The notes beneath the pieces are model-generated. The model searched no databases. It saw nothing but the letters and a program-made list of their open reading frames with translations, and was not told the origin of the DNA. From Bosea sp. BIWAKO-01 (GTDB lineage Bacteria; Pseudomonadota; Alphaproteobacteria; Rhizobiales; Beijerinckiaceae), in NCBI RefSeq assembly GCF_001748145.1, contig NZ_BCQA01000001.1, positions 1,240,001 to 1,304,000 of the forward strand: a DNA stretch of 64,000 nucleotides, written 5' to 3'. This document shows positions 3,618 to 21,516 of the stretch, one piece after another (position 1 is the stretch's first letter; each line of letters opens with the position of its first letter). Made by a program: the position numbers and the translations under genes.

Positions 3618-4652
3618 ATGAGCAAGGCACCCCGCATACTGGCTGTCATCGCCCTCGTCGGGGCGGCTGGCGCCTGGTGGTATGGCCACCGTCCCGCCGA
3701 GACGACCGAGTTGGTCCTCTACGGCAATGTCGACCTCAGGCAGGCCTCGCTGGCCTTCAATGGCAGCGAACGCATCGCGGCGATCCTTGTCGAAGAGGGC
3801 AATGTCGTTCGCAGCGGGCAGGTCCTCGCGAAACTGGATACGAGCCGACTGCAACCGCAGATCGACCAGATGGAAGCGACAGTCGGAGCCCAGAAGGCCG
3901 CACTCGATCGGTTGCGCAACGGTAGCCGCCCCGAGGAAATCGCCCAGGCCCGCGCCAACCTGGAATCGGCCAGGGCGGATTTGGTCAACGCCGCTGCGCA
4001 ATATGAGCGGCGGCGCGCCTTGTCCGCGAATGTCGTCAGCCAGCAGGATCTCGATGCCGCCAAGGCGCTTGCCGAGACCTCCAAGGCAAAACTCGATGTC
4101 GCAAAGAGTGCGCTCGACCTCACTCTCGCCGGCCCACGCTCGGAGGACATCGCGCAGGCTGACGCCCAGCTACGGGGCAGCCAGGCGCAGCTTGCGCTCG
4201 CCCGGCGCCAATTGGTCGATGCGCAGCTGCTTGCTCCCTTCGATGGCGTGGTTCGCTCGCGGCTGATGGAACCCGGCGAGATGGCCTCGCCCAGCCGCCC
4301 GGTGCTTTCCCTGGCGATGACCGGCACGAAATGGGTGCGGACCTATGTGGCTGAGCCGAAGCTCGGGCAGGTTCGTTCCGGCATGCGGATGCAGGTCACC
4401 ACGGACAGCTTTCCGAACCAGCCGCTCGAAGGCTGGATCGGCTTCATCTCACCCGTTGCCGAGTTCACGCCGAAGACCGTGCAGACCGAGGACCTGCGCA
4501 CCAGCCTCGTCTACGAAATGCGTGTCTTCGTCGAGGACCCCCAGGACAGGTTGCGTCTTGGCATGCCGGCCACCGTCAGGCTGCTGCCGGGCACTGAGGC
4601 TGCAGTCGCCAACCGCGCTGCCGCGCCCGAGACCGGGAAGGCCGAGCCATGA
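3618..4652 (+). CDS. ybhG: HlyD/membrane-fusion adaptor, YbhG-like
   Basis: The 344-residue periplasmic adaptor has one N-terminal membrane segment (about 5-22). A split biotinyl-lipoyl domain lies at about 32-75 and 200-215. An alpha-helical hairpin spans about 75-190, and a beta-barrel domain follows. Length and order match E. coli YbhG. It links the inner-membrane ABC-2 pump to the outer membrane. It is first in an operon and overlaps ybhF by ATGA. No in-frame ATG lies just downstream, so 3618 is the likely start even though the promoter -10 almost touches it. Confidence 0.85.
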   Translation: MSKAPRILAVIALVGAAGAWWYGHRPAETTELVLYGNVDLRQASLAFNGSERIAAILVEEGNVVRSGQVLAKLDTSRLQPQIDQMEATVGAQKAALDRLRNGSRPEEIAQARANLESARADLVNAAAQYERRRALSANVVSQQDLDAAKALAETSKAKLDVAKSALDLTLAGPRSEDIAQADAQLRGSQAQLALARRQLVDAQLLAPFDGVVRSRLMEPGEMASPSRPVLSLAMTGTKWVRTYVAEPKLGQVRSGMRMQVTTDSFPNQPLEGWIGFISPVAEFTPKTVQTEDLRTSLVYEMRVFVEDPQDRLRLGMPATVRLLPGTEAAVANRAAAPETGKAEP

Positions 4653-6421: not shown

Positions 6422-7563
6422 CCGCGGCAACTCCACAAACCGGCGGAATGGCAAGGCTACGCCGCATCGTGGCGCTGATCCGAAAGGAAGGCTGGCAGGT
6501 CGTGCGCGATCCGAGCAGCATCGCGATCGGCGTGATCATGCCGATGCTGCTGCTCGTGCTCTTCGGCTACGGGCTTTCCTTCGACGTCAAGAACGTACCG
6601 GTCGCGATCGTGATGGAGGACATCTCGGCCGAGGCGCGCGGCGTGGCGTCGAGCTTCGAACTCTCCGACTATTTCAACGCGGTGCAGGTCAAGACCATGG
6701 CCGAGGCCGAGCGGATGATGCTCGAGAAGCGCGTCAACGCCATCGTCCGTATCCCGCCCGATTTCGCGCGCCGGATGGAGCAGGGCACAGCCGAGATCCA
6801 GGTGCTCGTCCATGGCACCGACGCCAATACCGCCCGCATCTCGCTCGGCTACGCTCAGGGAGCGGTTGCGACCTGGATGGCGCGCGAGGCCGCGATGGGC
6901 CGCATCATCGCCGGTCCGCCAGTTTCGATCGAGAGCCGGCTTTGGTTCAACGACGCCAATAACAGCAGCTACTTCCTGGTTCCCGGCCTGATCGTGCTCG
7001 TGATGACGCTGATCGGTGCGCTGCTCACCGCGCTTGTCGTCGCACGAGAATGGGAGCGCGGAACCTTCGAGGCGCTGTTCGTCACGCCGGTACGCCCCGG
7101 CGAAATCCTGCTCGGCAAGACCGTGCCCTATTTCATCCTCGGCATGATCGGGCTCGCTCTGTCTATCCTCGGCGCCAAGCTGCTCTTCGGCGTGCCGATC
7201 CGGGGTTCGCTCTGGCTGCTGGTTGCCGCATCGATGCTCTATCTGATCGTCGCGCTCGGCATCGGCTTGCTGATCTCCTCGCTGACCAGGAGCCAGTTCG
7301 TCGCGAGCCAGATCACAATCATCGCCACCTTTCTCCCGGCGATGATGCTGTCCGGCTTCATGTTCGACATCCGCAGCATGCCGGCAGCCATCCAGGTGAT
7401 CACGCATATCTTCCCGGCGCGCTATTTCGTCAGCGTGCTGCAGACCCTGTTCCTCGCCGGGGACATCTGGCCGGTGATCCTGCCGAATGCAGCGGTGCTG
7501 GCCGTCATGGCCGCGGTGCTGATCGCGCTTGCGATCCGCGCGACGCGCAAGACCATCGGGTGA
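6418..7563 (+). CDS. ybhS: ABC-2 permease, YbhS-like
   Basis: The 381-residue inner-membrane protein has one N-terminal transmembrane helix (about 35-53). A large extracytoplasmic domain (about 54-185) follows, then five C-terminal helices. ATGA overlap with ybhF and a homologous permease directly downstream point to a YbhS/YbhR heterodimer. In E. coli the system exports cations and drugs; the substrate here is inferred. Confidence 0.85.
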   Translation: MTAATPQTGGMARLRRIVALIRKEGWQVVRDPSSIAIGVIMPMLLLVLFGYGLSFDVKNVPVAIVMEDISAEARGVASSFELSDYFNAVQVKTMAEAERMMLEKRVNAIVRIPPDFARRMEQGTAEIQVLVHGTDANTARISLGYAQGAVATWMAREAAMGRIIAGPPVSIESRLWFNDANNSSYFLVPGLIVLVMTLIGALLTALVVAREWERGTFEALFVTPVRPGEILLGKTVPYFILGMIGLALSILGAKLLFGVPIRGSLWLLVAASMLYLIVALGIGLLISSLTRSQFVASQITIIATFLPAMMLSGFMFDIRSMPAAIQVITHIFPARYFVSVLQTLFLAGDIWPVILPNAAVLAVMAAVLIALAIRATRKTIG

Positions 7564-7570
7564 GGTGGCC

Positions 7571-8689
7571 ATGCTCGACACGCTGCTGCGCATTCTCGCT
7601 CTGATCCGCAAGGAACTGCTCGCGATCCTGAAGGATCCGAAGAGCCGCATCTCCCTGATCGCCCCGCCCGTTCTGCAGTGCCTGATCTTCGGTTATGCCG
7701 CGACCTATGACCTCAACAATGTGCCCTATGCGCTGCTCGACCACGACCGCAGCGCAGTCTCGCGGGCGCTGATCGCGCGCCTGGACGGTTCCGGCACCTT
7801 CACGCGCGTCGCCACGCTCGACGTCGAGCGCCAGATCGCCGACATCATCAACGACCAGCGCGCCTTGCTGGTGATCACCATTCCCGACGATTTCGAGCGC
7901 GGTCTGCAGGCCGGGGCGGCGCCCGCCGTGCAAGTCATCGCCGACGGGCGTAATTCCAACACTGCGGGCACCGCGCAAGCCTATGTCAGCCAGATCGTCA
8001 CCGGCTTCGCAGCCGACTGGCAGAATTCACAGGGCCAGCCCGGCCCACCCGTTCGGATGACCACACGGGCCTGGTACAACCCCACCCTCGAGACGCGCTG
8101 GTACATGGTTCCGGCCCTGATCGGCACAATCACCATGATGATGACGATGATGCTGACCGCGATGTCGGTGGCGCGCGAGCGCGAGGAAGGCACGTTCGAT
8201 CAACTGCTGGTGACGCCGTTCCGGCCCTCGGAGATCATGGTCGGCAAGGCCGTCCCCGCCATGATGATCGGGCTCACCCAGTCGACGCTGATCCTGCTGG
8301 TGGCGCAGCTCTGGTTCCAGATCCCGTTCTCCGGCAGTTTCGCTATGCTCTATCTCGGCCTCTTCCTGTTCCTCGCGGCATCGGTCGGGATCGGCCTCTT
8401 CATCTCGTCCATCGCGAGTAATATGCAGCAGGCGATGATCGGCTCCTTCGTCCTGCTGATGCCCTTCATGCTGCTCTCGGGCCTGACGGCGCCGATCGGC
8501 AACATGCCCGAGATCCTGCAGTACTTCACCCTGATCAATCCGCTGCGCTACGCCATCAGCATCACGCATCAGATCTATCTGGAGGGCGCCGGAATCAGGC
8601 AGCTCTTGCCGGAGATGCTGGCGCTCGTCGCCATTGCCGCCGTGACACTGCCCTTCGCCGCCTGGATGTTCAGGAACCGGCTCGTCTGA
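7571..8689 (+). CDS. ybhR: ABC-2 permease, YbhR-like
   Basis: The 372-residue partner of the preceding permease has the same plan of one helix, a periplasmic domain and five helices. I chose the ATG at 7571 because GAGGTGG stands directly before it and the protein then begins MLDTLLRILALIRKEL, aligning with its paralogue. An in-frame start at 7529 would add 14 arginine-rich residues overlapping ybhS and is unlikely. It is last in the exporter operon; a REP-like palindrome and a hairpin follow. Confidence 0.85.
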   Translation: MLDTLLRILALIRKELLAILKDPKSRISLIAPPVLQCLIFGYAATYDLNNVPYALLDHDRSAVSRALIARLDGSGTFTRVATLDVERQIADIINDQRALLVITIPDDFERGLQAGAAPAVQVIADGRNSNTAGTAQAYVSQIVTGFAADWQNSQGQPGPPVRMTTRAWYNPTLETRWYMVPALIGTITMMMTMMLTAMSVAREREEGTFDQLLVTPFRPSEIMVGKAVPAMMIGLTQSTLILLVAQLWFQIPFSGSFAMLYLGLFLFLAASVGIGLFISSIASNMQQAMIGSFVLLMPFMLLSGLTAPIGNMPEILQYFTLINPLRYAISITHQIYLEGAGIRQLLPEMLALVAIAAVTLPFAAWMFRNRLV

Positions 8690-8764: not shown

Positions 8765-8801
8765 GATCCTCGCGCCGGATATGATGTCCGGTCGGAGGAT
8801 C
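8765..8801. terminator. Hairpin between ybhR and nagA
   Basis: GATCCTC (8765-8771) pairs with GAGGATC (8795-8801), and inside it CCGGA (8775-8779) pairs with TCCGG (8787-8791). It abuts the nagA stop codon and lies between convergent operons, so it may end both. No T tract is visible. Confidence 0.45.
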
Positions 8802-9916
8802 TAGCCGCCGGTGCGCAGCACGGAGAACTCCGCTCGCCGCCCCGGCGCGATCCGGCCATGGCTGGTGGACAGGCCGAGAAAGGCTGCCGGCGTTGCGCTC
8901 GCCATCGCCAGGGCCTGCTCAAGCGTGGCGCCACCGTGCCGATATGCATTGAGAACCGCGGCATTCATGTCGAGATGGGCGCCGGCGAGGCGGCCCTCCG
9001 CATTGACGAGCCGGCCGCCGCTGACATGGATCGTCTCGCCGAAGAGTTCGAAGGCATCCCTGTCGGCGCCGATCGTCGCCATCGCGTCGGTGACCAGCAT
9101 CATCCTGTCCGGCCCGATCGCGCGGAACGCGGCCTGGAAGGATGGCCAGGCGACGTGATGTCCGTCCGCGATGATTCCGGTGGTGAGCCCCATACCCGAC
9201 ATCACCGAACCGACCACGCCCGGCTCGCGCGAGCCGAGCTGCGACATGGCGTTGAACAAATGGGTGGCACCGCTCATACCCTCGGCATGGGCCGCCGCCA
9301 TCTCAGCCGCGCTCGCGTTGGAATGGCCCACACAGACCTTGACGCCACGCGCGACCAGCGCGCGGATGAAGCCGGACGGCACGCATTCCGGTGCGAGCGT
9401 CACCAATGTCACGCCGGCAGAGCCGAGCGACGCCAGCAGGTCGACATCCTCCGGCTCCGGCCGCAGGAGATTGGCGACCAGATGCGCGCCACGACGCTCG
9501 GGGTTGATGAAGGGGCCCTCGATGTGAAGGCCGAGAACGCCCGGCACAGCTCGTGCCATCGCTTCGCGTGCGGCTTCGATCGCCTTCGCAATATCTGCCC
9601 TGCTGGCGCTGATCAGGGTTGGCAGGAGGAACCGCGTGCCGAAGCGGGCATGGGCAGCGCTGATCGCAGCTATGCCGTCGCAGCTCAACGTATCGTTCAG
9701 CATGACGCCGCCACCGCCATTGACCTGAACATCGATGAAGCCCGGCGCGAGCACGGCATCGTCCGGCAGTTCCTCGATCACGCAGTCCGGCTGCGCGCTT
9801 GACGGCAGCATCTCGGTGACGATCCCATCCTCGGCGATGACGAGGCGATCCGGCCAGATCCGCTCGCCATCGAACAGGCGCCGCGCGCGCCAGCCCTGCC
9901 GCCGCGCTGCCATCAC
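8801..9916 (-). CDS. nagA: N-acetylglucosamine-6-phosphate deacetylase
   Basis: The 371-residue amidohydrolase removes acetate from GlcNAc-6-P to give glucosamine-6-P. Diagnostic sites are PGFIDVQVNG (58-67), the metal-ligand glutamate in HIEGPF (about E133), GHSN (His about 198), THLFNAM (His about 219) and the catalytic aspartate in VTDAM (about D277). It is last in the murQ-gntR-SIS-nagA operon and its start overlaps the SIS stop by ATGA. It receives GlcNAc-6-P from MurQ and from the sugar kinase at 19302. The start is fixed by the overlap. Confidence 0.93.
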   Translation of the reverse strand: MMAARRQGWRARRLFDGERIWPDRLVIAEDGIVTEMLPSSAQPDCVIEELPDDAVLAPGFIDVQVNGGGGVMLNDTLSCDGIAAISAAHARFGTRFLLPTLISASRADIAKAIEAAREAMARAVPGVLGLHIEGPFINPERRGAHLVANLLRPEPEDVDLLASLGSAGVTLVTLAPECVPSGFIRALVARGVKVCVGHSNASAAEMAAAHAEGMSGATHLFNAMSQLGSREPGVVGSVMSGMGLTTGIIADGHHVAWPSFQAAFRAIGPDRMMLVTDAMATIGADRDAFELFGETIHVSGGRLVNAEGRLAGAHLDMNAAVLNAYRHGGATLEQALAMASATPAAFLGLSTSHGRIAPGRRAEFSVLRTGG

Positions 9917-10944
9917 AGTGTCTCCGTGACCTTGACCAGCCCCGGAGGGCGGTCGACATCGCGACCAAGCCGCACCGCCTCGGCTTCCAGCGCGCGATAA
10001 ACAGGCGCCAGCAGCGCGATCGCGTCGAGCGCCGGGTCGCCCGCTGCCAGTCCCGGGAGGGTCGGCCGCAGCCCGCTTCCCGAGAAGATCGACGCCCCCT
10101 CGCGACGGAGCGTCGCCAGAGCCTCCTCAATGCTGTCCGAAACCTCACCGCCGGCATTGAGGCCGAGGATTGGATGCTCGCTCCGGATCGCCGCCTTGGG
10201 ACCGTGCAGGACTTCTGCGGAGCTGAACGCCAGCACGGGTACGCCCAGGACTTCGGCTGCCTTGAGCGCGGCCTCGCGCGCCGGACCCAGCGTCAGACCG
10301 CGCCCGATCACGAAACCCGCCGGTGCGTCGGAGAGCTGGCGCGCCCAGGCAGACCAGTCGAGTGTGAGCGCCTGGGAAAGACGTTCGGGAGCCGACTGCG
10401 CAGATGTCGCGAGTGCGGCGTCCCTGCTCAGCCGCGCGACCAGCAGCATGCCGGCCAGCATCGTGTTCACGACGGTCTTGGTTGCGGCCACGGCGAGCTC
10501 GGGACCTGCCGCGATCGGGATGACATGGCGGCAGGCCCGCGCGGCAGGGGAATCGGGATCATTGACGATGGCGACCGTTTGCGCCCCGGCCACTGTCGCC
10601 TGCTGGGCCGCCGCCACGAGATCGGGGCTGCGGCCGGACTGCGAGATCAGGATATAGAGCGCCTCCTTGAGACGCGGGCTCGCGCCATAGCGCGTCACCA
10701 CCGATGGGGCCGCAGCAGCAGAGCTCAAGCCCAGGCGGGTCTCGATGAGATAGCGCAGATGCGTGCCTGCATGGCCGGAACTGCCGCGGCCACTGACGAC
10801 GACATGGCTGACGCGGGGCATCTGCAACGCCTCGACGACGCGCGCAATCTCGCCTTGCCCCTCCTGCAGAAGCCGCGCCGCGGCCTCGGGGATTTCTGCG
10901 ATCTCGGCCGACATGCGGGAGCGGGTTCGATCCTGCGGTGTCAC
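9913..10944 (-). CDS. SIS-domain sugar isomerase/deaminase, NagB-II (GlmS C-domain) type
   Basis: Two SIS domains (about 30-170 and 190-330) match the isomerase half of GlmS without its glutaminase domain. Visible are SGRGSSG (phosphosugar loop), SQSGRSPD and the C-terminal PPGLVKVTETL typical of this group. Proteins of this form act as glucosamine-6-phosphate deaminases (NagB-II) or related aldose-ketose isomerases. Next to nagA, deamination of GlcN-6-P to fructose-6-P is the natural role. ATGA overlaps join it to the regulator upstream and nagA downstream. A second in-frame ATG 10 codons in is possible. Confidence 0.85.
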   Translation of the reverse strand: MTPQDRTRSRMSAEIAEIPEAAARLLQEGQGEIARVVEALQMPRVSHVVVSGRGSSGHAGTHLRYLIETRLGLSSAAAAPSVVTRYGASPRLKEALYILISQSGRSPDLVAAAQQATVAGAQTVAIVNDPDSPAARACRHVIPIAAGPELAVAATKTVVNTMLAGMLLVARLSRDAALATSAQSAPERLSQALTLDWSAWARQLSDAPAGFVIGRGLTLGPAREAALKAAEVLGVPVLAFSSAEVLHGPKAAIRSEHPILGLNAGGEVSDSIEEALATLRREGASIFSGSGLRPTLPGLAAGDPALDAIALLAPVYRALEAEAVRLGRDVDRPPGLVKVTETL

Positions 10945-11774
10945 GATTGCGGCCCCATCGCTTCGCCCTTCAAGGTCGCGACAAAATCATAGCGATCGCC
11001 GCGATAGGCCGAGAGCGTGAACTCGACCGGCTTGCCATTGCCGAGAAACGCGCGGCGTTCGATCCTGAGCAGTGCGCTGCCCGCCGGAATACCGAGATGC
11101 TTCGCCTCGTCCGCCGTCGCGAGACCGGCATGGATGCGCTGCACGCCATGGGCTGGCGCTGCGCCCCTCTGGGCGAGCGCAGCATAGAGCGAGGTCTCGA
11201 TCAGATCCGGTGACGGCAGGATGGTGGCCGGCACGACGGCGCATTCGATCGCCAGCGGCTCGCCATCGGCTGTCCTGACCCGCATCAACCGGACGACCGT
11301 GTCGCTCGGCCCGAGACCGAGCGCCATCGACTCCTGGGGCTTCGGCCGCGCCAGCTCCTTCGACAGCCAGATCGAACCCGGCCGGCCGCCGCGGTTCTCG
11401 ATATCGGTCGAGAAACTCGCCAGGACCGAGAGCGGCTGCTCCATGCGCGAGGCGACGAAGGTGCCCGAGCCATGCCGTCGCGACAACGCGCCGCTGCGAA
11501 TGAGCTCGTCAATGGCATTGCGCACGGTGACCCGGGCATAACCGGTCAGCTGGGCGAGATCGCGCTCGGAGGGAACGGCATCGCCGGGAAGGAAGACCTC
11601 GGTCTCGATCAGCCGGGACAAAGCGCCGGCGAGCCTGAGATAGCGTGGCGTCGGGTCGTCTCCGGCGAGCGCCTGAAGGATCGCCTGCTGCTTGGCCGGC
11701 ATCGCTTCGGGTACAGCCTCGGACACGCCCTCGCGCGGACGCCGCGGACCGCGTCCGGGTGAGGTTTCGCTCAC
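10941..11774 (-). CDS. GntR/HutC-family regulator of the amino-sugar operon
   Basis: The 277-residue protein has a winged helix DNA-binding domain (about 35-100; PSERDLAQLTGYARVTVRNA) and a C-terminal UTRA ligand domain, as in NagR/DasR-type regulators that sense GlcN-6-P or GlcNAc-6-P. I chose the GTG at 11774 because it overlaps the murQ stop (GTGA) and removes a non-homologous arginine-rich extension. Its gene lies inside the operon it probably controls. The direct repeats at 12717 and 14208 are its likely sites. Confidence 0.87.
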   Translation of the reverse strand: MSETSPGRGPRRPREGVSEAVPEAMPAKQQAILQALAGDDPTPRYLRLAGALSRLIETEVFLPGDAVPSERDLAQLTGYARVTVRNAIDELIRSGALSRRHGSGTFVASRMEQPLSVLASFSTDIENRGGRPGSIWLSKELARPKPQESMALGLGPSDTVVRLMRVRTADGEPLAIECAVVPATILPSPDLIETSLYAALAQRGAAPAHGVQRIHAGLATADEAKHLGIPAGSALLRIERRAFLGNGKPVEFTLSAYRGDRYDFVATLKGEAMGPQS

Positions 11775-12697
11775 GGTGCCGCCCTGGGAGGCGCCTTGGC
11801 CGGCTCGTTCGTTCCGACACCGAGATCGAACAGGGCCAGGCGCAGATTGCCGTGATGGCGCGCGAGCAAGGTCTCGGCAAAGGCAGCCTCGGCGCCGCTT
11901 GCAAGCAGCACCGCGCGCTTCACATCGCCGCCAGCGCGGTCGAGGTGGCGGGCGGCGGCCTCCATGCCGCATCCGGTGATCATGTCGACCATCTGCGCGG
12001 CCCGCAGCCGGAGCTTGGCATTGGTCGCGCGCATATGAACCATCAAGCCGCGATAAACCCGGCCAAGACGAATCATCAGCAGCGTCGAGAACAGGTTGAG
12101 CACGATCTTCTGGGCGGTGCCGGCCTTCATCCGGGTCGAGCCCGCAACGACCTCTTCTCCGGTTTCGGTGAGGATGCCGAGATCGGCCGTGCGCAGCAGC
12201 GCCGAGCCGCGGTTGTTGGCGACGCCGATGGTCAGCGCGCCGCGGGCCTTGGCCTCGCCGATGGCAGCGAGCGTGTAGGGCGTGCGGCCGCTGGCAGCGA
12301 GACCGATCACGACGTCGTTCGGCCCGACATCGGTGCGGCGCATCGCGCCCGCGCCGTCATCGACCGAATCCTCGGCATTCTCGACGGCGTGGAGGATCGC
12401 CTCATCGCCGCCAGCGATGGCGAAGGCCAGTCGCTCTTCCGGCCAGTCGAAGGTCGGGGTCAGCTCAGCGCCGTCCTGTACGCCGATGCGGCCCGAGGTG
12501 CCGGCGCCCGCATAGATCAGGCGTCCACCGGCCTCGAGGCGCGGCACAGCCGCGGCAACGGCTTCCGCGATCGCCGGCAGGGACGAGGCAATGGTGGCGA
12601 CAGCTGCTAGCTGGCCTTCGTAAAGCGCCTTGAGGATGTCGAGGTCGCCCCAGGCATCAAGTTCTCGAAAGCGCGCGCTGACATCTTCAGTCGCCAT
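11771..12697 (-). CDS. murQ: N-acetylmuramic acid-6-phosphate etherase
   Basis: This 308-residue SIS protein cleaves the lactyl ether of MurNAc-6-P to give GlcNAc-6-P and D-lactate. GAGTSGRIG (near residue 60), the following AELTPTF with the catalytic-type glutamate, and GSTRMKAGTAQK (near 200) are family hallmarks. Length is close to E. coli MurQ (298). The ATG at 12697 has GAGGGG upstream; a GTG further up would run into the operator. It heads the operon and takes MurNAc-6-P made by AnmK, encoded just upstream. Confidence 0.93.
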   Translation of the reverse strand: MATEDVSARFRELDAWGDLDILKALYEGQLAAVATIASSLPAIAEAVAAAVPRLEAGGRLIYAGAGTSGRIGVQDGAELTPTFDWPEERLAFAIAGGDEAILHAVENAEDSVDDGAGAMRRTDVGPNDVVIGLAASGRTPYTLAAIGEAKARGALTIGVANNRGSALLRTADLGILTETGEEVVAGSTRMKAGTAQKIVLNLFSTLLMIRLGRVYRGLMVHMRATNAKLRLRAAQMVDMITGCGMEAAARHLDRAGGDVKRAVLLASGAEAAFAETLLARHHGNLRLALFDLGVGTNEPAKAPPRAAP

Positions 12698-12716
12698 GGA
12701 TATCCCCTCGTGACCA

Positions 12717-12732
12717 GACCAAAATAAGTCCA
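12717..12732. promoter_or_regulatory. Candidate GntR operator at the murQ promoter
   Basis: On the minus strand the site reads TGGAC-TTATTT-TGGTC, two half-sites 11 bp apart (one helical turn), followed by a further TGGTCA (12711-12716). The same arrangement occurs at 14208-14223. It covers the murQ -10 hexamer, so bound protein should repress. TGGTC half-sites resemble those of NagR/DasR-type regulators, but here they are direct repeats. Confidence 0.6.
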
Positions 12733-12749
12733 CTTTAGCCCAGTAGCAA
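12721..12749 (-). promoter_or_regulatory. Predicted murQ promoter
   Basis: TTGCTA (12744-12749), a 17-bp spacer and TATTTT (12721-12726) form a moderate sigma-70-type promoter about 24 nt upstream of the murQ ATG. The candidate operator overlaps the -10. Confidence 0.45.
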
Positions 12750-13027
12750 GCGAGGAACCGACAGGGAAGAGATGTTTCGACCGGAAGCCACGCTTCCTCT
12801 GCAAGTGCACCTCGTTTTGTCCGTTGGCGAACCGGTCATGCCGGCCCGGCTCTCACCGCACGAAGGCAAGGCAAGCCAGCGGATCGCGCTGCCACTGCCA
12901 GAGCATCTGGGGCGACGCAGATCGATCGCGCCCTCTCGGACAGCGGACGCAACGCAACCAACCGCTTTGGGGAAGGCGTCCTTGCGGCGGGCAGATCGCC
13001 CCCAAAAGTGCGCCGCGCGTGTAAAAA
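12750..13027. other. Intergenic region between anmK and murQ
   Basis: No credible gene is seen in these 278 bp. Short plus-strand frames here have no Shine-Dalgarno and no recognisable product. The segment carries whatever ends the anmK transcript and upstream promoter DNA for murQ, but I find no strong hairpin with a T tract. Confidence 0.4.
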
Positions 13028-14131
13028 TTAGTTCGGCAGATTGAGCCGACCGCCCGTCAGCGGCTCCGGCACGCCGGTCGTGCCGGGCAGGCTGAGCGGC
13101 AGGCCCTTGACCGAGCGGATCGCGAGGTAACCGAAGGTCTGTGCCTCGATGACATCGCCAGCCCAGCCAGCAGCCTCGACGGGCTCGACCGGCACGCCGA
13201 GGCGCTCATGCAGCCTCGCCATGAAGTGGCTGTTCAGGCGGCCGCCGCCCGTGACCAGCCAGCGCCTCGGCACCTTCGGGACAAGACGCAGCGCGGCGAC
13301 CACGCTTTCCACCGTGAAGGCCGCAAGCGTCGCGGCGCCATCGGCATCGGAGAGAGCCTCCACGACCTTGGCACGCCGATGAAAATCATTGCGATCCAGC
13401 GATTTCGGTGCCGGGCGATCGAAGAACGGGTTCGTCATGAAGTCAGCCACGAGATCCTCGCGCACCTGTCCACTCGCCGCCAGCGCCCCGCCAGCATCGT
13501 ATTCACGGCCCAACCGCCGCAAGACGAAATCGTCAAGGATCGCGCTGGCCGGACCGGTGTCGAACGCGATGACATCGTCGCCGTCGATATAGGTGACATT
13601 GCCGACGCCACCGAGGTTCAGCACCATCACGGGCTGCTCCAGCCCCTGCGCCAGCGCACGGTGATAAAGCGGCGCGAAGGGGGCCCCCTCGCCGCCGGCC
13701 GCGACGTCAGCGTAGCGGAAACGGTCGACGGTCGGGACGCCAAGCGCTCTTGCAACAGCCGGCCCGTCAATGAGCTGGCGGGTGAAGCGGATTTCCGGCC
13801 GGTGATAGACGGTCTGGCCATGCAGGCCGACGAGGTCGATGCCCTGCGGATCAAGCGCCTGTTCGGCCATGAAGCGCCTGACCGCATCGAGATGGGCGGC
13901 TGTCACCGCCGCCTCCAGCTCGAGCAACGGTTCCTTGACCGCTCGTTCGGCCTCGGCAATCAGAGCCTGAAGTTCACGTCGCGTCTCTGCCGGATAAGGG
14001 TAGGAAGCGCCGGCGCCGAAGCGGAGCGTCTCGCGGCCATCGCTCTCGACAATGGAAACGTCGATCGCGTCCATCGACGTGCCGCTGATCACACCGATCG
14101 CGGTCAGTGTCTGCTTGGCCAGATCGCGCAT
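13028..14131 (-). CDS. anmK: Anhydro-N-acetylmuramic acid kinase
   Basis: The 367-residue kinase opens the 1,6-anhydro ring of recycled MurNAc with ATP, giving MurNAc-6-P for MurQ. IGVISGTSMDAID begins about residue 10, as in E. coli AnmK (369 residues). NLGGVGNVTYI, DTGPASAILD and TGGGRLNSHFM are the other conserved blocks. I chose the ATG at 14131 by length; an in-frame ATG 7 codons earlier is possible. The gene is divergent from the muropeptide-type importer, and a candidate GntR operator lies between them. Confidence 0.92.
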   Translation of the reverse strand: MRDLAKQTLTAIGVISGTSMDAIDVSIVESDGRETLRFGAGASYPYPAETRRELQALIAEAERAVKEPLLELEAAVTAAHLDAVRRFMAEQALDPQGIDLVGLHGQTVYHRPEIRFTRQLIDGPAVARALGVPTVDRFRYADVAAGGEGAPFAPLYHRALAQGLEQPVMVLNLGGVGNVTYIDGDDVIAFDTGPASAILDDFVLRRLGREYDAGGALAASGQVREDLVADFMTNPFFDRPAPKSLDRNDFHRRAKVVEALSDADGAATLAAFTVESVVAALRLVPKVPRRWLVTGGGRLNSHFMARLHERLGVPVEPVEAAGWAGDVIEAQTFGYLAIRSVKGLPLSLPGTTGVPEPLTGGRLNLPN

Positions 14132-14207
14132 CTTCCGTTCCCTAATGCCCATGGCAAGCTTCAAGGCTTGCACTGGCTCTAGGCGATCGGCTAAGCGTTG
14201 TCCAGAT

Positions 14208-14223
14208 TGGTCCTTAAGTGGTC
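14208..14223. promoter_or_regulatory. Candidate GntR operator in the anmK/importer divergent region
   Basis: TGGTC-CTTAAG-TGGTC repeats the half-site at 11-bp spacing, exactly as at 12717-12732. The two sites agree as TGGWCYTWWKKTGGTC. Position between divergent anmK and the importer operon suggests that one regulator governs both arms of the island. Confidence 0.6.
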
Positions 14224-14284
14224 CATATGCGAAACTGATCGCACGAGCGCCCAAGAATGCGCCGTCTGCCAGGAGGGATGGGCC

Positions 14285-15814
14285 ATGTATCGCGCCATGA
14301 AGCAGGGTTCGGGACTACGCCGCGCGTTGCGCAGCAGCATCGCTGCCACGGCCTTCGCGTTGATCGCCGGTGCTGCGTCCGCCCAGGTGCTCGAGGTCGC
14401 CGTCGAGGCTTCGCCCGCAGGGCTCGATCCCCATATCGTGACGGCCTTCGCCTCGTCGCAGCTCGTGCTCGGCCCGATCTATGAAGGACTGACCGCGCTC
14501 GACAAGGACCTCAACATCATCCCCGGCCTGGCCCAGTCCTGGACCGCGTCCGCCGACGGCAAGACCGTGACCTTCAAGCTCCGCTCCGGCGTGACCTTCC
14601 ATGACGGCAAGCCGATGGAAGCGGAAGACTCCGCCTCGTCCTTGCGGCGGGTGCTCTCCAAGGATGTCGGCTCGCCGCTCGCCAGCCGCCTTGGAGCGCT
14701 GGAAAGCGCAACCGCCGTCGATGCGACCACGCTCGAGCTCAAGCTCAAGGAGCCGTCGGCCCCGCTGCTCGCTTCATTGACCGGCATCGCGATCGTCCCA
14801 CGCGGGCTCGAGGGCAACAAGGACGCGCTGCAGCGCGCGCCGATGGGTACCGGCCCGTTCAAGTTCGAGGAGTGGCAGCCGAACGGCTTCATCCGCCTCG
14901 CCAAGCATGCCGGCTACTGGAATGCGGCCGAGGTGAAGCTTGCGGGCGTCAAGTTCAACTTCGTTCCCGAAGCGGCCACGCGCCAGGTCGGCATCGGCAA
15001 TGGCCAGTTCGCGCTGCTGCCGCATATCGATGCAGCCACCGCGCTCCAGCTCAAGGGCAAGCCCAGTGTGGCGATCCGCGAGACGATGGAGCTCGCCTAC
15101 ACGCTGATCGGCATGAATGTCTCGAAGCCGCCCTTCGACAATCCGAAGTTGCGGGAGGCGCTGAACTACGCCCTGAACCGCAAGGAGATCATCGACGCTG
15201 CGCTGTTCGGCAGCGGTGCACCGGCCGCACCGCTGCCCCCCGTGCTGAAGGACTGGGCGGTCGATGTGAAGGACCTGCCCTGCTACACACATGATCCGGC
15301 CAAGGCTCAGGCCCTGCTCAAGGAAGCCGGCATCGCCACGCCGGTCTCGGTCAGCATGACGATCCTGCCGCGGCAGGACATCCGCGACATCGCCCAGGTC
15401 GTGCAGCAGCAGCTCGGCAAGGCCGGCTTCAAGGTCGAGCTGAAGAACCCCGAGCTCGGGCAGTTCGTGCAGGACTGGCGCAACTCGAACTTCGACCTCT
15501 TCGCCTCGACCAATGCCGGCAGCATCGAGCCGGACGATTATTTCTACCGCGCCTTCCGCACGGGCGGATCGACCAACGTCTTCAAGTACAGCAACCCCGA
15601 GCTCGACGCGCTGCTCGACAAGGGCCGCGCGACGCTCGACAAGCCTGCGCGGCAGGCGGCCTATCGCGACGCACAAAAGATTCTCGGGTGCTCGGGCCCC
15701 GCGGCTCATATCGCCTATCCCACACTGTTCAGCGCCGTGCGCGGCAACCTGCAGGGCTATGACATCTACGCCAACCGCTCGCTGGTCTCGCTCGGCCGCG
15801 CCAGCCTGCGCTGA
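14285..15814 (+). CDS. Periplasmic peptide/muropeptide-type ABC binding protein (SBP family 5)
   Basis: The 509-residue DppA/OppA-class protein has a Sec signal peptide (1-33, cleaved after AASA). AGGAGGGA seven bases before the ATG at 14285 fixes the start. The family binds peptides, and some members bind murein peptides. Placement beside anmK, murQ and nagA suggests a wall-derived ligand such as anhydro-muropeptide; this is inference. It heads a six-gene plus-strand operon, and the DppB-like permease starts 17 bp later. Confidence 0.85.
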   Translation: MYRAMKQGSGLRRALRSSIAATAFALIAGAASAQVLEVAVEASPAGLDPHIVTAFASSQLVLGPIYEGLTALDKDLNIIPGLAQSWTASADGKTVTFKLRSGVTFHDGKPMEAEDSASSLRRVLSKDVGSPLASRLGALESATAVDATTLELKLKEPSAPLLASLTGIAIVPRGLEGNKDALQRAPMGTGPFKFEEWQPNGFIRLAKHAGYWNAAEVKLAGVKFNFVPEAATRQVGIGNGQFALLPHIDAATALQLKGKPSVAIRETMELAYTLIGMNVSKPPFDNPKLREALNYALNRKEIIDAALFGSGAPAAPLPPVLKDWAVDVKDLPCYTHDPAKAQALLKEAGIATPVSVSMTILPRQDIRDIAQVVQQQLGKAGFKVELKNPELGQFVQDWRNSNFDLFASTNAGSIEPDDYFYRAFRTGGSTNVFKYSNPELDALLDKGRATLDKPARQAAYRDAQKILGCSGPAAHIAYPTLFSAVRGNLQGYDIYANRSLVSLGRASLR

Positions 15815-15831
15815 TCCGGCACGGTCGAGGC

Positions 15832-16782
15832 ATGCTCCGCCATCTGCTCCAGCGCGGCCTCGACCTCGCGATCGTGCTCTTCGGGATCTCCGTGATCGTC
15901 TTCATGATGATCCGGCTGATCCCGGGCGATGCGGTCGCGATCATGCTCGGCGCCAATACCGAGGTGACGCCGGAGCGCGTTGCAGCGATGCGCAGCGAGC
16001 TCGGGCTCGACCGACCATTGATCGAGCAATATCTGAGCTGGCTCGGGCGAGCGCTTCACGGCGATTTCGGCACGTCGATCTGGACCGGCCGGCCCGTGCT
16101 CCAGGAGATCACGGCCCAGATCTGGCCGACCCTGCAGCTCACAGTGCTGGCCTTGGTGATTGGCGCCGGCCTCGCCGTGCCCCTCGGTTGCCTGATGGCT
16201 CACTGGCGGGGCGGGCGGGCTGATCTCGTCCTGCGTATCGGCGCGATCGCGGGGCTCACCATCCCGTCCTTCTGGCTCGGCATCGTCATGCTGATCACGG
16301 TGGCAAGCCTGGCCCCGAGCTTCGCCTCGCTCGGCTATGTCCCGTTCAGCGAGGACCCGCTCGGCAATCTGCAGCGCCTGCTGCTGCCGGCGATCGCGCT
16401 GGCGCTGCCGATCCTTGCCAATCTGTCGCGCCTTGTCCGGACCGCGATGCTCGACGCGCTCAGCCAGGACTATATCCGCACCGCCCGCGCCAAGGGGCTT
16501 TCGGAGACCGCGGTGCTCTACCGACATGCGCTCCGCAACGCGCTCATTCCATTCGTCACCAGCGTCGGCATCATGACGGGCTATCTGCTTGGCGGCGCGA
16601 TCGTGGTGGAGCAGGTCTTCTCAATTCCGGGCCTCGGGCGGCTGATCCTCGGCGCCATCGCCGAACGGAACTACCCGCTGGTCCAGGCCACCATCCTCAT
16701 CGTCACCGTCGGCTTCGTGCTGGTGAACGCCCTGGTCGATCTCGCCTATGCGCTGATCGACCCAAGGCTCAGGACTGCGTGA
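15832..16782 (+). CDS. DppB-type ABC permease
   Basis: The 316-residue inner-membrane protein has about six helices. The EAA loop motif RTARAKGLSETAVLYRHALR contacts the ATPase. It forms the importer channel with the next gene, which it overlaps by ATGA. Family assignment is secure; the ligand is inferred from context. Confidence 0.87.
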   Translation: MLRHLLQRGLDLAIVLFGISVIVFMMIRLIPGDAVAIMLGANTEVTPERVAAMRSELGLDRPLIEQYLSWLGRALHGDFGTSIWTGRPVLQEITAQIWPTLQLTVLALVIGAGLAVPLGCLMAHWRGGRADLVLRIGAIAGLTIPSFWLGIVMLITVASLAPSFASLGYVPFSEDPLGNLQRLLLPAIALALPILANLSRLVRTAMLDALSQDYIRTARAKGLSETAVLYRHALRNALIPFVTSVGIMTGYLLGGAIVVEQVFSIPGLGRLILGAIAERNYPLVQATILIVTVGFVLVNALVDLAYALIDPRLRTA

Positions 16783-17600
16783 TGAGCCAGAGCCGCCGTA
16801 TCGCCATCGCAGCGGGCATCATCGTCACCCTGCAGATCGTGCTGGCGCTCGCCGCCCCGCTGGTTGCTCCCTATGATCCGCTCGCTCAGGATATCGTCGC
16901 ACGCCTGAAGGGGCCGAGCCTCGCGCATTGGCTGGGCACCGATCATCTCGGCCGCGATATCCTGGCCCGCATCCTCTACGGCTACCGCACCGCCCTCATC
17001 GCCTGCGGCATCGCTGTCGGCCTTGCGCTGATCGTCGGGGGTGGCCTCGGCCTGCTCGCCGCCTTCTATCGCGGCTGGTGCGAGCGCATCGTGATGCGGC
17101 TGATGGATATTCTCTTCGCCTTTCCCGTGATGTTGCTCGCCATCGGCATCATCGCCATGCTCGGGCCGCGAACGGAAAGCGCCGCCATCGCGATTGCCGT
17201 CGTCTATGTGCCGATCTTCGCGCGGCTGATCCGTGGCCCGGCCCTCGTTCTGGTCGAGAGCGACTTCGTCGCCGGCATCCGCTCGATCGGCGCTTCGGAC
17301 CTGCGCATCATGCTGCGCCATATCCTCCCCAATCTGGCCTCCGTGATCCTGGTCCAGACCTCGTTGCTGCTGTCGGCCGCCATCCTGGTCGAGGCCTCAC
17401 TCTCCTTCCTCGGCCTCGGCACCCAGCCGCCCACCCCCTCCCTCGGGCTGATGCTGGCGGAAGGGCGCAATTTCGTGCTGCTCTCGCCCTGGAACGCGAT
17501 CTTCGCCGGGCTCGGCATCCTCTTCCTCTCGCTCGGCTTCAGCCTGCTCGGCGACGCGCTGCGCGACGAACTCGATCCCCGCCTGCGGGGCCGGTCGTGA
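16779..17600 (+). CDS. DppC-type ABC permease
   Basis: The 273-residue second permease has an N-terminal helix, the conserved GTDHLGRDILARILYG block and an EAA loop (SIGASDLRIMLRHILPN). It overlaps the upstream permease by ATGA and the downstream acetyltransferase by GTGA. No DppD/DppF ATPase gene follows, so the pair must borrow ATPases encoded elsewhere. Confidence 0.87.
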   Translation: MMSQSRRIAIAAGIIVTLQIVLALAAPLVAPYDPLAQDIVARLKGPSLAHWLGTDHLGRDILARILYGYRTALIACGIAVGLALIVGGGLGLLAAFYRGWCERIVMRLMDILFAFPVMLLAIGIIAMLGPRTESAAIAIAVVYVPIFARLIRGPALVLVESDFVAGIRSIGASDLRIMLRHILPNLASVILVQTSLLLSAAILVEASLSFLGLGTQPPTPSLGLMLAEGRNFVLLSPWNAIFAGLGILFLSLGFSLLGDALRDELDPRLRGRS

Positions 17601-18046
17601 TCATCCGCAAGGCAGAGCCAGCCGATATCGCTCCGGCGGCAGCCATTCTTGCGCAAGCCTATCAGACCGGCTTCCGCCCCATCATCGGCGATGCGGCGTC
17701 GGCCTATGACGTCGCGCATTTCGAGGCCCGGTTCGAGCGGGACCTGGAGCATCTCACCGTCCTGGACGATGGCGGCGTCAGAGGCGTTCTGCTGCTGCTC
17801 GACGGACATGTCATCATGCTCTTCGTGGCCGAGACTGGCTGCGGCCATGGTGCAGCCCTGCTCTCCCATGCCGAGGCGAATGGCGCCCGCTCGCTCGAGG
17901 TATTCGCGGCGAATACGGGGGCGCGACGCTTCTATGAGCGGGCCGGCTGGCACAGAGCCCGCGAGTACTGTCGCGATTTCGCCGGCGCCGAGCACCGCTT
18001 CCTGCGCTATGAGAAGTCACCGGAACACGCGCAAGAGGGCGCCTGA
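17597..18046 (+). CDS. GNAT-family N-acetyltransferase in the recycling operon
   Basis: This 149-residue single-domain GNAT starts at a GTG that overlaps the permease stop (GTGA) and ends in TGATG shared with murA. The acetyl-CoA loop is degenerate (CGHGAALL); motif [14 protein letters not shown] is clear. Tight coupling between a wall-fragment importer and MurA suggests it acetylates an amino sugar or a peptide amine from peptidoglycan, but the substrate cannot be read from sequence. Rim-type or drug acetylation are alternatives. Confidence 0.8.
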
Positions 18047-19305
18047 TGGACAAGCTCCTGATCCGCGGTGGCCAGCGGCTGTCCGGAACCGTCGATATCC
18101 GCGGCGCCAAGAACGCCGCCTTGCCCGCCTTTGCGGCCGCGCTGCTCTCCGACAGGCCGCTGACCCTGCGCAACCTGCCGGATGTTGTCGATATCAGGAC
18201 GATGCAGGCCCTGCTGGAGGGGTATGGTGTCATCTTCTCCGGCCGTGCGGCCGATGCGCTGACGCTCAGCGCCAGCGAAGCCGCGCCGCGGGAGGCGAGC
18301 TATGACATCGTGCGCAAGATGCGCGCGACCATCCTGGTGCTGGGGCCGCTCATCGCCCGCTTCGGCCATGCCCGCGTCTCCCTGCCCGGCGGCTGCGCGA
18401 TCGGCGCACGCCCGGTCGACCTTCACCTGAAGGCGCTCGAGGCCCTCGGCGCCGACATCAGCGTCGCTGGCGGCTATATCGAGGCGAGTGCTCCCGCCGG
18501 TCTGCGCGGCGCGCGTATCGTCTTCCCCTTCTCCTCGGTCGGAGCCACCGAAACCGCCCTGCTGGCGGCGAGCCTCGCCAGCGGTGAAACCGAGATCGTC
18601 AACGCGGCTAAGGAGCCGGAAGTCCTCGACCTCGCCCGCTGCCTCGTCGCAATGGGCGTAAGGATCGAGGGCATCGGCAGCCATCGCCTGCAAGTCCAGG
18701 GCGCCCAGAGCTTCAGGCCGGCGACACATGAGATCGTTGCCGATCGCATCGAGGCGGGCACCTACGCGGTTGCTGCCGCGATCACCGGCGGCGAACTCGA
18801 ACTGGTCGGTGCGCGGCTCGAACATCTCGCGGCGGTGGGCGAAGCGCTCGAAGCCGCCGGCGTCAGGCTCTGGCCGACCGATCGCGGGCTGATGGTGTCG
18901 CGGCCAGGCCGGCTCACCGGCATCGACATCATGACCCAGGCCTATCCTGGGTTCTCGACGGATCTGCAGGCGCAGTTCATGGCGCTGATGAGCGTGGCGG
19001 ACGGCACCTCACTGATCCGCGAAACGGTATTCGAGAACCGCTTCATGCATGTTCCGGAGCTGGTCAGGCTCGGGGCCGACATCACGCTGAAGGGGACCAG
19101 CGCCATGGTGCGCGGCGTCGAAACACTCAAGGCGGCGCCGGTCATGGCGACCGACTTGCGCGCATCGGTCAGCCTGGTGCTCGCGGGGCTCGTCGCCGAG
19201 GGCGAGACTGTGGTCAGCCGCATCTACCATCTCGACCGGGGGTATGAGGCGCTCGACCGCAAGCTCCGGCGCTGCGGCGCCGATATCGAACGGATCGGCG
19301 CATGA
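18046..19305 (+). CDS. murA: UDP-N-acetylglucosamine 1-carboxyvinyltransferase (MurA)
   Basis: The 419-residue EPSP-synthase-fold enzyme transfers enolpyruvate from PEP to UDP-GlcNAc, the first committed step of peptidoglycan synthesis. All key sites are present: GAKNAALP with the Lys-Asn pair near 22-23, the fosfomycin-target cysteine in [14 protein letters not shown], the aspartate in GFSTDLQAQ, and the arginines in [14 protein letters not shown] and YHLDRGYE. It therefore looks active. Its place inside a recycling and uptake operon, not with division or housekeeping genes, suggests a second, inducible MurA; whether another copy exists cannot be judged here. It overlaps the kinase by ATGA. 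Confidence 0.9.
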
Positions 19306-20183
19306 GTGCCGCAACCGATCTGTATCTTGGGGTCGATGGCGGCGGCACCGGCTGCCGCTGCCGGCTGGAGACCGCTCAGGGCGAGGTGCTCGGCTCGGGC
19401 ATCGCGGGGCCGGCCTCTCTCCGTCTCGGTCTGGACGCCTCGCTCGCCGCGGTGATGCAGGCAGCGCGCGGTGCGATGAGCGAGGCTGGCCTCGGCGAAG
19501 ATCAGTTCAGTCGGGTCCGAGCCGGAATCTGCCTCGCCGGTATCGGCCGCAAGGGCATGCAGGAGGAACTCGCAGGCTGGGCGAGCCCCTTCGCCAGGAC
19601 TGTCTTCGAGAGCGATGGGCTCGCCGCCTGCCTGGGCGCCCATTCCGGTGAGGACGGCGGCATCATCATCATCGGCACCGGCTCGATCGGCCTCGCCCGC
19701 GTCGCCGGACGCGAGATCCGCATTGGCGGCTACGGTTTTCCGGTTGGCGATGAGGGCAGCGGCGCCGATCTCGGCCTTGCCGCCATTCGCGTCTCGCTGC
19801 GCGCCCATGACGGCCGGGAGCCGCAAACGCGCTTCACGACGGACGTCCTGGCCAGGTTCCAGGGCGATCCGTTCGAGGTCATCGCCTGGATGGACAAGGC
19901 CCATGCCACGGACTACGCGACGCTCGCGCCCCTTGTGCTGCGCCATGCCGATCTCGGCGACTCGCACGCACGCGCCATCATGCAGAATGGTGCGGCCTTG
20001 ATCGACGCCATGGTGCGCACCCTGTTCGAGCGCGAGGTGCCGCGCGTCGCGCTGATCGGCGGCCTGTCCTCTGCGATGGAGGCCTGGCTTGCGCCTGATG
20101 TCAGGCGCAGGCTCTCCACCGTCAGAGGCGATGCGATCGCGGGAGCGCTATCGCTGGTGCGGGGGCATCACGCTGCGGGCTGA
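19302..20183 (+). CDS. BadF/BadG-family ATPase, probable N-acetylglucosamine kinase
   Basis: The 293-residue ASKHA-fold protein has the phosphate-1 loop [12 protein letters not shown] near residue 10, GTGSIGLA near 125 and [10 protein letters not shown] near 145, as in GlcNAc kinases of the BadF group. It would make GlcNAc-6-P for NagA from GlcNAc released by wall turnover. It is last in the importer-murA operon. Its end overlaps the convergent DUF1330 gene by 16 bp, so no terminator separates them. Confidence 0.83.
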
Positions 20184-20476
20184 GGCCCGTCATAGCCGCC
20201 GATGATGACGAGATCGGACTTACCCGCCTGCGCCAGATGCTTGACCGCCTCCTGGTATTCAGGTGACTCGTAGCAGGCGCGCGCCGTTGCCTCGTCCTTG
20301 AACTCGATCACGACGTTGTGCTGGCGCCCTTCGCCGCGCGCGAGTTTGTACTCGCCGCCACGCACCAGGAACTTCGCGCCGAATTTTGCGAAGGCGATGG
20401 CATTCAGGGTGCGATACCTGGCGTATGCCTCCTGATCCTCAACGTCGACGCGGGCGACCCAATATCCCTTCGCCAC
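20168..20476 (-). CDS. DUF1330 small protein, copy 2
   Basis: The 102-residue ferredoxin-like fold protein begins at a GTG three bases after the preceding DUF1330 stop, so the two are translated together. It shares the plan of its neighbour (KGYWVARVDV, then RGGEYKLARGEGR and VIEFKDEATARACYESPEY). Members often form dimers; a biochemical role is not established. Its 3' end runs into the sugar-kinase gene on the other strand. Confidence 0.8.
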   Translation of the reverse strand: MAKGYWVARVDVEDQEAYARYRTLNAIAFAKFGAKFLVRGGEYKLARGEGRQHNVVIEFKDEATARACYESPEYQEAVKHLAQAGKSDLVIIGGYDGPQPAA

Positions 20477-20479
20477 GGC

Positions 20480-20767
20480 TCAGAGCCCTTCCACGACAAC
20501 GAGATCGATCTCACCGGCGCCTTCGCGCTCCTTGCGGGCCGCGGCATATTCCGGCGAATTCGCATAGGCCTTGGCCGTCTCGAAATCCTTGAACTCGATG
20601 ACGACGTTGCGGGCCCGGCCCTCGCCCTCGGCCACCGTCATCTGGCCGCCGCGCACTATCGGCGTACCGCCATACTGCTTGATCACCTCGGAGGCCTTGG
20701 CGGCATAGACCGCCCAGAGCGTCGCGTTGGAAACCATGGCGCGACCGATGACATATCCCTTGGGCAT
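20480..20767 (-). CDS. DUF1330 small protein, copy 1
   Basis: The 95-residue paralogue of the gene downstream has the same layout: KGYVIGRAMV at the start, RGGQMTVAEGEGRARNVVIEF in the middle and a C-terminal strand. The pair is a tandem duplication that has diverged considerably. It lies 41 bp after pyrF and may be cotranscribed with it. Function unknown. Confidence 0.8.
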   Translation of the reverse strand: MPKGYVIGRAMVSNATLWAVYAAKASEVIKQYGGTPIVRGGQMTVAEGEGRARNVVIEFKDFETAKAYANSPEYAAARKEREGAGEIDLVVVEGL

Positions 20768-20808
20768 TTCCAGCTTCCGTTCTTGGGTTGAAACCTGATC
20801 CGACCAGA

Positions 20809-21516
20809 CTACGAAGCCGCGGCGATCTCGTCCATGATCGCGGCAGCCGCCGCACGCGGGTCAGCCGCGCGGATAATGGGGCGCCCGACCACGAGATGGT
20901 CGGCCCCGACGCGGATCGCCTCGCTGGGCGTCAGGGTCCGTTTCTGGTCGCCGGCGGCACTTCCCGCGGGGCGAATGCCGGGCGTCACGATGACCATGTC
21001 CGGGCCAATAATGTCGCGCACGATTTCGGTCTCGGCAGCCGAGCAGACGATACCGTCGATCCCCGCGCTGCGGGCCTGCTGGGCACGCAGGCGCACGAGA
21101 TCGCGCACGGCGAGGCCGTAGCCGGCATCACGCAGATCGCCGTCATCGTAGGAGGTGAGCGCGGTGACGGCGAGCAGCTTCAGATCGGAGTCGGCCCGCC
21201 CCTCGACCGCGCCGCGCATGGTCTGCGGATAGGCGTGCACGGTGAGGAAGGTGACGCCGAGCTTGGTCAAGGAATCGACGCCCTCGGTGACGGTGTTGCC
21301 GATGTCATGCAGCTTGAGGTCCAGGAAGACCTTCTTGCCCTCAGAAATCAGCTGACGGGACAGGTCGAGCCCGCCGGCAAAGGCGAGCCGGTAGCCGATC
21401 TTGTAGAAGGTCGCCCCATCGCCCAGTTCGGAGACGATGCGGTAGGCGTCCCAGATCGTCGGCACGTCGAGCGCCACGATCATACGGTCGCGGAGATCGT
21501 TGATCTTGGCGGTCAT
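20809..21516 (-). CDS. pyrF: Orotidine 5'-phosphate decarboxylase
   Basis: This 235-residue TIM barrel performs the last step of UMP synthesis. The catalytic block [11 protein letters not shown] starts at about residue 66 with the Asp-Lys-Asp charge network. TPGIRPAGS, with the phosphate-gripping loop, lies near 180. Length is normal. The start overlaps the stop of the histidine phosphatase gene by ATGA. Confidence 0.94.

Follow-up and report, generated by a model that had tools for sequence, protein, structure and literature searches.

Peptidoglycan recycling of the E. coli type, built from AnmK, MurQ, NagA and NagB, leads from anhydro-N-acetylmuramic acid (anhydroMurNAc) to fructose-6-phosphate, and AnmK, MurQ and NagA combined with a NagB-II-type deaminase form a known version of the same route. 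The E. coli layout is not known to bring together a GntR regulon, an importer of the ATP-binding cassette (ABC) type, a BadF kinase and a second MurA. Normally the product of a housekeeping gene, MurA catalyses the first committed step of wall synthesis. Here we describe a probable cell-wall salvage island of the soil bacterium Bosea sp. BIWAKO-01, located at positions 8801-20183 of a 64,000-nucleotide (nt) stretch of its genome (the window), which encodes the same anhydroMurNAc to fructose-6-phosphate route with a probable deaminase of another family. Unlike in E. coli, an ABC-type importer, a BadF kinase and an additional MurA, here called MurA2, appear to belong to the same GntR regulon as these genes. 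Agrobacterium and Caulobacter use a different system, the MurU shunt (AnmK, MupP, AmgK and MurU; PMC9790009, PMC13046382), with which this genome shares a TsaE-APH fusion and a MurU-like gene. The available parts of those papers describe no MurQ branch or second MurA, however, and give Caulobacter as lacking MurQ (PMC9790009, PMC13046382). The Agrobacterium importer, YejBEF-YepA, is unlike that of the island.

The link between the two arms of the island, murQ-gntR-SIS-nagA with anmK on one side and the divergent importer-GNAT-murA2-kinase operon on the other, is real and old. Using an alignment of kinases that adjoin murA, we searched one genome per species and examined the best 80 of 418 kinase relatives as loci; because the query kinases adjoined murA, this set leans toward murA loci, and some of the loci are incomplete, being truncated at a contig end or at the limit of the flank. 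murA2 is present in 79 of the 80; in 78 cases it immediately precedes the kinase in the same orientation, with 0-63 nt between the aligned ends. Its other partners are the binding protein (76 loci), murQ (74), anmK (68), a GntR regulator (19), GNAT (19), nagA (13) and the SIS gene (11). A sample of the genus served as an independent test of co-occurrence: MurA2 (at least 67% identity) and a true MurQ (E <1e-99) occur in the same 10 of 41 genomes, two genomes with MurQ matches at E ~1e-4 to 1e-3 having been dropped as SIS-domain matches, and among 61 genomes the GNAT is found at E <1e-27 only in those 10. The ten represent two versions, carried by six and four genomes, and thus are not ten independent events; MurA2 identities in the genus likewise fall into two diverged groups, at 91-93% and at 67%. 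In a sample of 150 genomes from the order, MurQ is present in 28 and MurA2 in six, all six of which have MurQ, at a distance of ~1 kb in five genomes and 5.3 kb in our own.

The first-pass annotation had joined the two arms into an unusual single unit and held that the link would be accidental if relatives' anmK-murQ loci were without the right arm. The pairing is present both in the kinase-chosen loci and in the genus sample, and the unit is real, although it is not unique to this genome. Since the same arrangement recurs across genera, it cannot be put down to chance, and its recurrence in rhizobia and their relatives shows that the pairing of MurA2 with salvage did not arise by accident in this one genome. 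The Rhizobium and Mesorhizobium loci with murA, kinase, murQ, importer and anmK were found in this analysis and do not come from a paper. Like the island, these loci (e.g. L029 of R. tropici CIAT 899) hold the MurA2-kinase pair, MurQ, an importer and AnmK; they differ in having an RpiR regulator in place of GntR (57 of the 80 loci), a fused ATPase and a PF00144 (beta-lactamase-fold) hydrolase. The hydrolase occurs in 53 of the 80 cassettes (17318-18358 in L029), and the DNA flanking the R. tropici locus showed no GNAT, nagA or SIS gene.

We compared MurA2 with the one other MurA of the genome, a housekeeping copy 56% identical to it and ~77 kb away, which adjoins DUF2948, hisD and UPF0262, the same neighbours as in Sinorhizobium and Pseudochrobactrum. 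In a tree of 40 MurAs (21 MurA2s, 17 housekeeping proteins, E. coli and Priestia), the 21 MurA2s form one side of a 100/100 branch, apart from the housekeeping MurAs, E. coli and Priestia, which rules out a recent copy of the housekeeping gene. We then searched 96 loci without a motif filter and obtained 95 MurA2-like matches (all but L051), of which 93 are full length and 91 distinct; those of L027 and L114 are truncated or split between two frames. K22, N23, R91, C115, R120, D305, R331, D369, R371 and R397 (E. coli numbering), which we take to be catalytic or binding residues, are kept in 91/91 distinct full-length proteins. Positions 160-161, which presumably contact UDP-GlcNAc (uridine diphosphate N-acetylglucosamine), are K-V in E. 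coli and S/F-P/S in nearly all MurA2s, and only four positions separate MurA2 cleanly from housekeeping MurA, all of them mild (V/I, V/L, T/S, L/V). Judged by the ten kept residues, MurA2 is very probably a catalytically intact, working MurA. The new element is a branch of MurA that lives in salvage regulons, whose component families were already known; we found no description of MurA2 in the open-licence PMC literature covered. Plasmid MurAs at 50-58% identity were rejected as further cases: the seven contexts fetched (Ruegeria twice, Sphingomonas, Qipengyuania, Xanthomonas, Pseudochrobactrum and Sinorhizobium) hold no recycling cassette, and four of these seven MurAs adjoin DUF2948, as does the housekeeping murA of our genome. 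Separately, on a plasmid of Chelatococcus CO-6 murA2 is unannotated and lies in two frames, through a frameshift or a sequence error (L027, 8755-10004).

The proposal of a single regulator for both arms is supported by a shared operator-like repeat. The island's regulator joins a GntR to a UTRA domain, as in the GntR/HutC amino-sugar regulators (NagR/DasR-like), and the pattern TGGWC-N6-TGGWC has two matches in the window, one ahead of murQ and the other in the gap that separates anmK from the importer operon. Both repeats are nearly invariant in an alignment of 11 distinct loci while the flanking bases vary (12 rows were aligned; L075 and L141 are the same record, as are L047 and L143). A weight matrix was trained on sites that precede the murA2 and importer genes in other genera, with the tested locus left out. 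It ranks the two sites of the window second and third over both strands of the 64 kb, and for 16 of 19 loci the leave-one-locus-out test places the top match 22-84 nt upstream of a cassette gene. The training set, whose only murQ site is that of the window itself, did not include the murQ sites of L027, L048, L050, L053, L059, L067, L075 and L148. The exact pattern occurs once in 16 other GntR-type loci, where the motif is a looser variant, and is absent from 59 other loci, 57 of them with RpiR (1.19 Mb); elsewhere, operons of murA2, the importer and murQ are again preceded by the motif. The island is very probably a single amino-sugar regulon for cell-wall salvage, with this repeat as its putative operator.

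Why a salvage regulon would hold a MurA may be understood from a second recycling path in the same cell. A TsaE-APH fusion (AmgK-like) followed by a MurU-like nucleotidyl transferase lies at C1:2128943-2131311 of this genome (G000, in L137), a context that fits an AmgK/MurU-like bypass. Such a bypass is used by Agrobacterium and Caulobacter (PMC9790009, PMC13046382), and in Caulobacter the formation of UDP-N-acetylmuramic acid (UDP-MurNAc) is argued to be a bottleneck that the MurU shunt relieves (PMC13046382). AmgK matches occur in 139 of the 150 order genomes, including all six with MurA2.

We think it more likely than not that wall fragments induce the island as a salvage regulon, and that MurA capacity rises in this way at the time when MurQ draws down MurNAc-6-phosphate (MurNAc-6-P). 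This account builds on gene content, conserved linkage, the separate MurA clade, the intact active site and the shared operator, all read from the sequence; its effector, transported substrate, direction of flux and purpose for MurA2 are inferred. The GntR-UTRA repressor would occupy both operators, that of murQ and that shared by anmK and the importer operon, until wall fragments enter and an amino-sugar phosphate, presumably GlcNAc-6-phosphate (GlcNAc-6-P), glucosamine-6-phosphate (GlcN-6-P) or MurNAc-6-P, releases it. The permeases and binding protein, AnmK, the kinase, MurQ, NagA and the SIS deaminase would then be made and would turn anhydroMurNAc and GlcNAc into GlcN-6-P and fructose-6-phosphate, and the second, intact MurA would be made at the same time. 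Whereas the AmgK/MurU-like bypass would turn recycled MurNAc directly into UDP-MurNAc, induction of MurQ would draw MurNAc-6-P off the bypass, and the co-induced MurA would keep up the supply of UDP-MurNAc from salvage-fed UDP-GlcNAc. We offer this compensatory role of MurA2 only tentatively. It is also conceivable, with no greater certainty, that MurA2 is an old MurA branch dedicated to recycling, fragment-induced with MurQ and the importer and kinetically tuned, for example toward less inhibition by UDP-MurNAc. Alongside the MurU shunt, wall sugar would then be degraded into the common pool, and its resynthesis would have a first enzyme of its own.

Several observations weigh against this account of a fragment-induced regulon. 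The operator pattern was drawn after the sites were seen; 0.33 matches are expected in the window, and since at least two matches also appeared in 3 of 100 shuffles, the match count alone is weak. The first-ranked matrix match of the window (3341) is not near a cassette gene, the sites of L042 likewise rank second and third behind an unrelated first match, and L144 has no matrix match near a cassette gene. The MurU-like gene scores 167 bits, with a cut-off of 250 that no control genome passes, Caulobacter included. The island and the ten Bosea-type loci L038-L047 hold no ABC ATPase of this importer type, and import of wall fragments by the right arm, as read in the first-pass annotation, is only putative. 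Six of the 80 kinase-relative loci show no murQ, including two of Nitratireductor and two of Nitrospirillum in which murA2-kinase is intact, so that murA2 has its constant partner in the kinase and not in MurQ. In the order sample, 22 of the 28 MurQ genomes are without MurA2, and the expected linkage holds there in one direction only: MurA2 implies MurQ, not the reverse. AmgK is present in 16 of these 22, and the difference from 6/6 is not significant. These 16 genomes refute the idea that MurA2 is present whenever MurQ meets AmgK, and MurA2 is therefore not a general requirement of MurQ plus bypass.

Two further observations concern the same samples. Among the 150 order genomes, an AmgK match is absent in 6 of 28 with MurQ and in 5 of 122 without, and some lineages may have MurQ in place of the MurU bypass. 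The murQ-less loci differ in layout: in Nitrospirillum (L095, 5658-11028; L114, 8738-14086), murA2-kinase and anmK stand without murQ or importer in the flank, with a radical SAM gene between kinase and anmK and adjacent ThiF genes in L095, and in Nitratireductor (L063, L090) murA2-kinase is accompanied by an RpiR gene and by a Dpp-type importer that has two ATPases, without murQ or anmK within ~10 kb.

The constancy of the murA2-kinase pair (78/80), which stays together even in murQ-less loci, favours an anabolic return, in which the kinase together with MurA2 would make up a path of its own, carrying salvaged GlcNAc through NagA, GlmM and GlmU to UDP-MurNAc, with MurQ as an optional feeder. 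The first-pass annotation came close to this reading in having the right arm salvage GlcNAc and perhaps send UDP-GlcNAc back to synthesis through MurA. However, the operon of the window also has NagA and the NagB-II-like deaminase, leading to fructose-6-phosphate, GlmM and GlmU lie outside the island, and the substrate of the kinase may be GlcNAc or MurNAc; we regard this reading as unlikely. In Gram-positives a second MurA probably backs up the first, and the intact MurA found here under a regulator that would respond to fragments could likewise serve as a spare for wall stress, the fragments released by damage inducing the backup. Fosfomycin attacks MurA at Cys115; as this residue is kept in all 91 proteins, MurA2 is not drug-proof through a change there, and the rest of the regulon is catabolic, which makes a spare MurA rather improbable.

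The cassette moves as a unit. In our genome and in L038 and L039, the kinase abuts a DUF1330-DUF1330-pyrF trio (window 20168-21516), which is intact in 30/30 loci fetched from the genus, and eight other cassette loci have no DUF1330 or pyrF genes beside the cassette. Many murA2 copies are on rhizobial megaplasmids: of 138 plasmid records with a MurA match, 17 reach at least 60% identity, those listed by name being Rhizobium, Allorhizobium and Chelatococcus, and the five examined all have kinase and murQ. In addition, the conjugative plasmid p5 of R. oryzihabitans (L030) has murA2-kinase-murQ with an adjacent Ugp-type sugar importer and a Tn3-family transposase nearby. Such mobility, the patchy occurrence in the genus and the two diverged versions within it would suit a mobile cassette for scavenging the wall debris of other bacteria as food, with murA2 as a passenger without special role. 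Yet a passenger would not be expected to stay intact, beside the kinase and behind the same operator across these genera, and we consider this quite improbable. Least credible is a new substrate for MurA2, e.g. a salvage intermediate, which the old separate clade and the altered positions 160-161 would allow but the ten kept residues and the mild group differences speak against.

The nearest solved relatives of the binding protein are DppA, YliB/GsiB and other family-5 structures, and this Dpp/Opp type fits peptides or muropeptides and proves neither. While a complete ABC importer comprises a binding protein, two permeases and one or more ATPases, the island falls short of this set; other GntR-type loci carry an ATPase pair beside the importer. 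Of 150 ATPase matches, those that score best in this genome reach 53-54% identity, and the ones in the five loci fetched round the top matches were rejected as orphan partners because these loci carry importer genes of their own. The island permeases probably borrow an ATPase. The BadF-type kinase has as its closest solved relative the probable GlcNAc kinase 1zc6 (E 1.1e-42); it belongs to the same superfamily as MurK, the MurNAc/GlcNAc kinase 8zo3 (residues 9-231 aligned, E 8.4e-17), and is closer to 1zc6. Its substrate could be GlcNAc or MurNAc, and the residues said to set MurNAc preference (PMC10465942) do not settle which. The GNAT adjoins the second permease in 19/19 GNAT-bearing loci of the 80 and so belongs with the importer; it is conserved in relatives despite its weak Pfam score. 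MdaA of Agrobacterium (PMC10838918) suggested that this GNAT might re-acetylate de-N-acetylated anhydromuropeptides. The genome holds seven PF01522 matches, and among the motif candidates of six loci no Cys-type motif was seen.

All genes named in the first-pass annotation are present at 8801-20183, with three 4-nt overlaps on the minus strand (9913-9916, 10941-10944 and 11771-11774); plus-strand neighbours overlap by 1-4 nt from the first permease onwards. We scored the proteins against NCBIfam/TIGRFAM family models with curated cut-offs and took domains from Pfam. Of the catabolic enzymes listed in that annotation, AnmK, MurQ and NagA exceed the cut-off of a family model, whereas the SIS protein reaches 234 bits of the 430 set for NagB-II (NF046059) and is NagB-II-like only. 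Against second models, NagA scores 279 bits (NF008371, cut-off 483) and MurQ 273 (the stricter TIGR00274, cut-off 302), both below the threshold, as is the kinase with its best match, NF046058 (NagK, SO3507 type; 264 bits, cut-off 370). The GC content of the island does not depart from its surroundings, an HlyD/ABC/ABC-2 exporter set lies to its left (3618-8689), and the closest named kinase relatives are Bosea records (95%). The genome measures 7.33 Mb in two contigs.

Table 1. Genes and operator-like repeats of the salvage island, in window coordinates
Feature	Position	Strand	Support or remark
nagA, GlcNAc-6-phosphate deacetylase	8801..9916	-	TIGR00221, 270 bits (cut-off 226)
SIS-domain protein, probable NagB-II type GlcN-6-P deaminase	9913..10944	-	best NCBIfam model NF046059
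gntR, GntR-UTRA (HutC-type) regulator	10941..11774	-	PF00392 + PF07702
murQ, MurNAc-6-P etherase	11771..12697	-	NF003915, 351 bits (cut-off 168)
operator-like direct repeat TGGAC-N6-TGGTC	12714..12735	-	centre 28 nt before murQ
anmK, anhydroMurNAc kinase	13028..14131	-	NF007141, 455 bits (cut-off 352)
operator-like direct repeat TGGTC-N6-TGGTC	14205..14226	+	between divergent anmK and importer operon
family-5 (Dpp/Opp type) solute-binding protein	14285..15814	+	PF00496
ABC permease, DppB/NikB type	15832..16782	+	PF00528, PF19300
ABC permease, DppC/NikC type	16779..17600	+	PF00528, PF12911
GNAT acetyltransferase of importer module	17597..18046	+	PF13673/PF13508, weak (best E 1.5e-4)
murA2, second UDP-GlcNAc enolpyruvyl transferase	18046..19305	+	TIGR01072, 541 bits (cut-off 393)
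BadF-type amino-sugar kinase (GlcNAc and/or MurNAc)	19302..20183	+	PF01869

If our account holds, some alphaproteobacteria would, within one regulon, link the degradation of old wall material with the provision of precursor for new wall. It would also make testable how MurNAc-6-P is shared in a cell that owns both MurQ and a MurU bypass.

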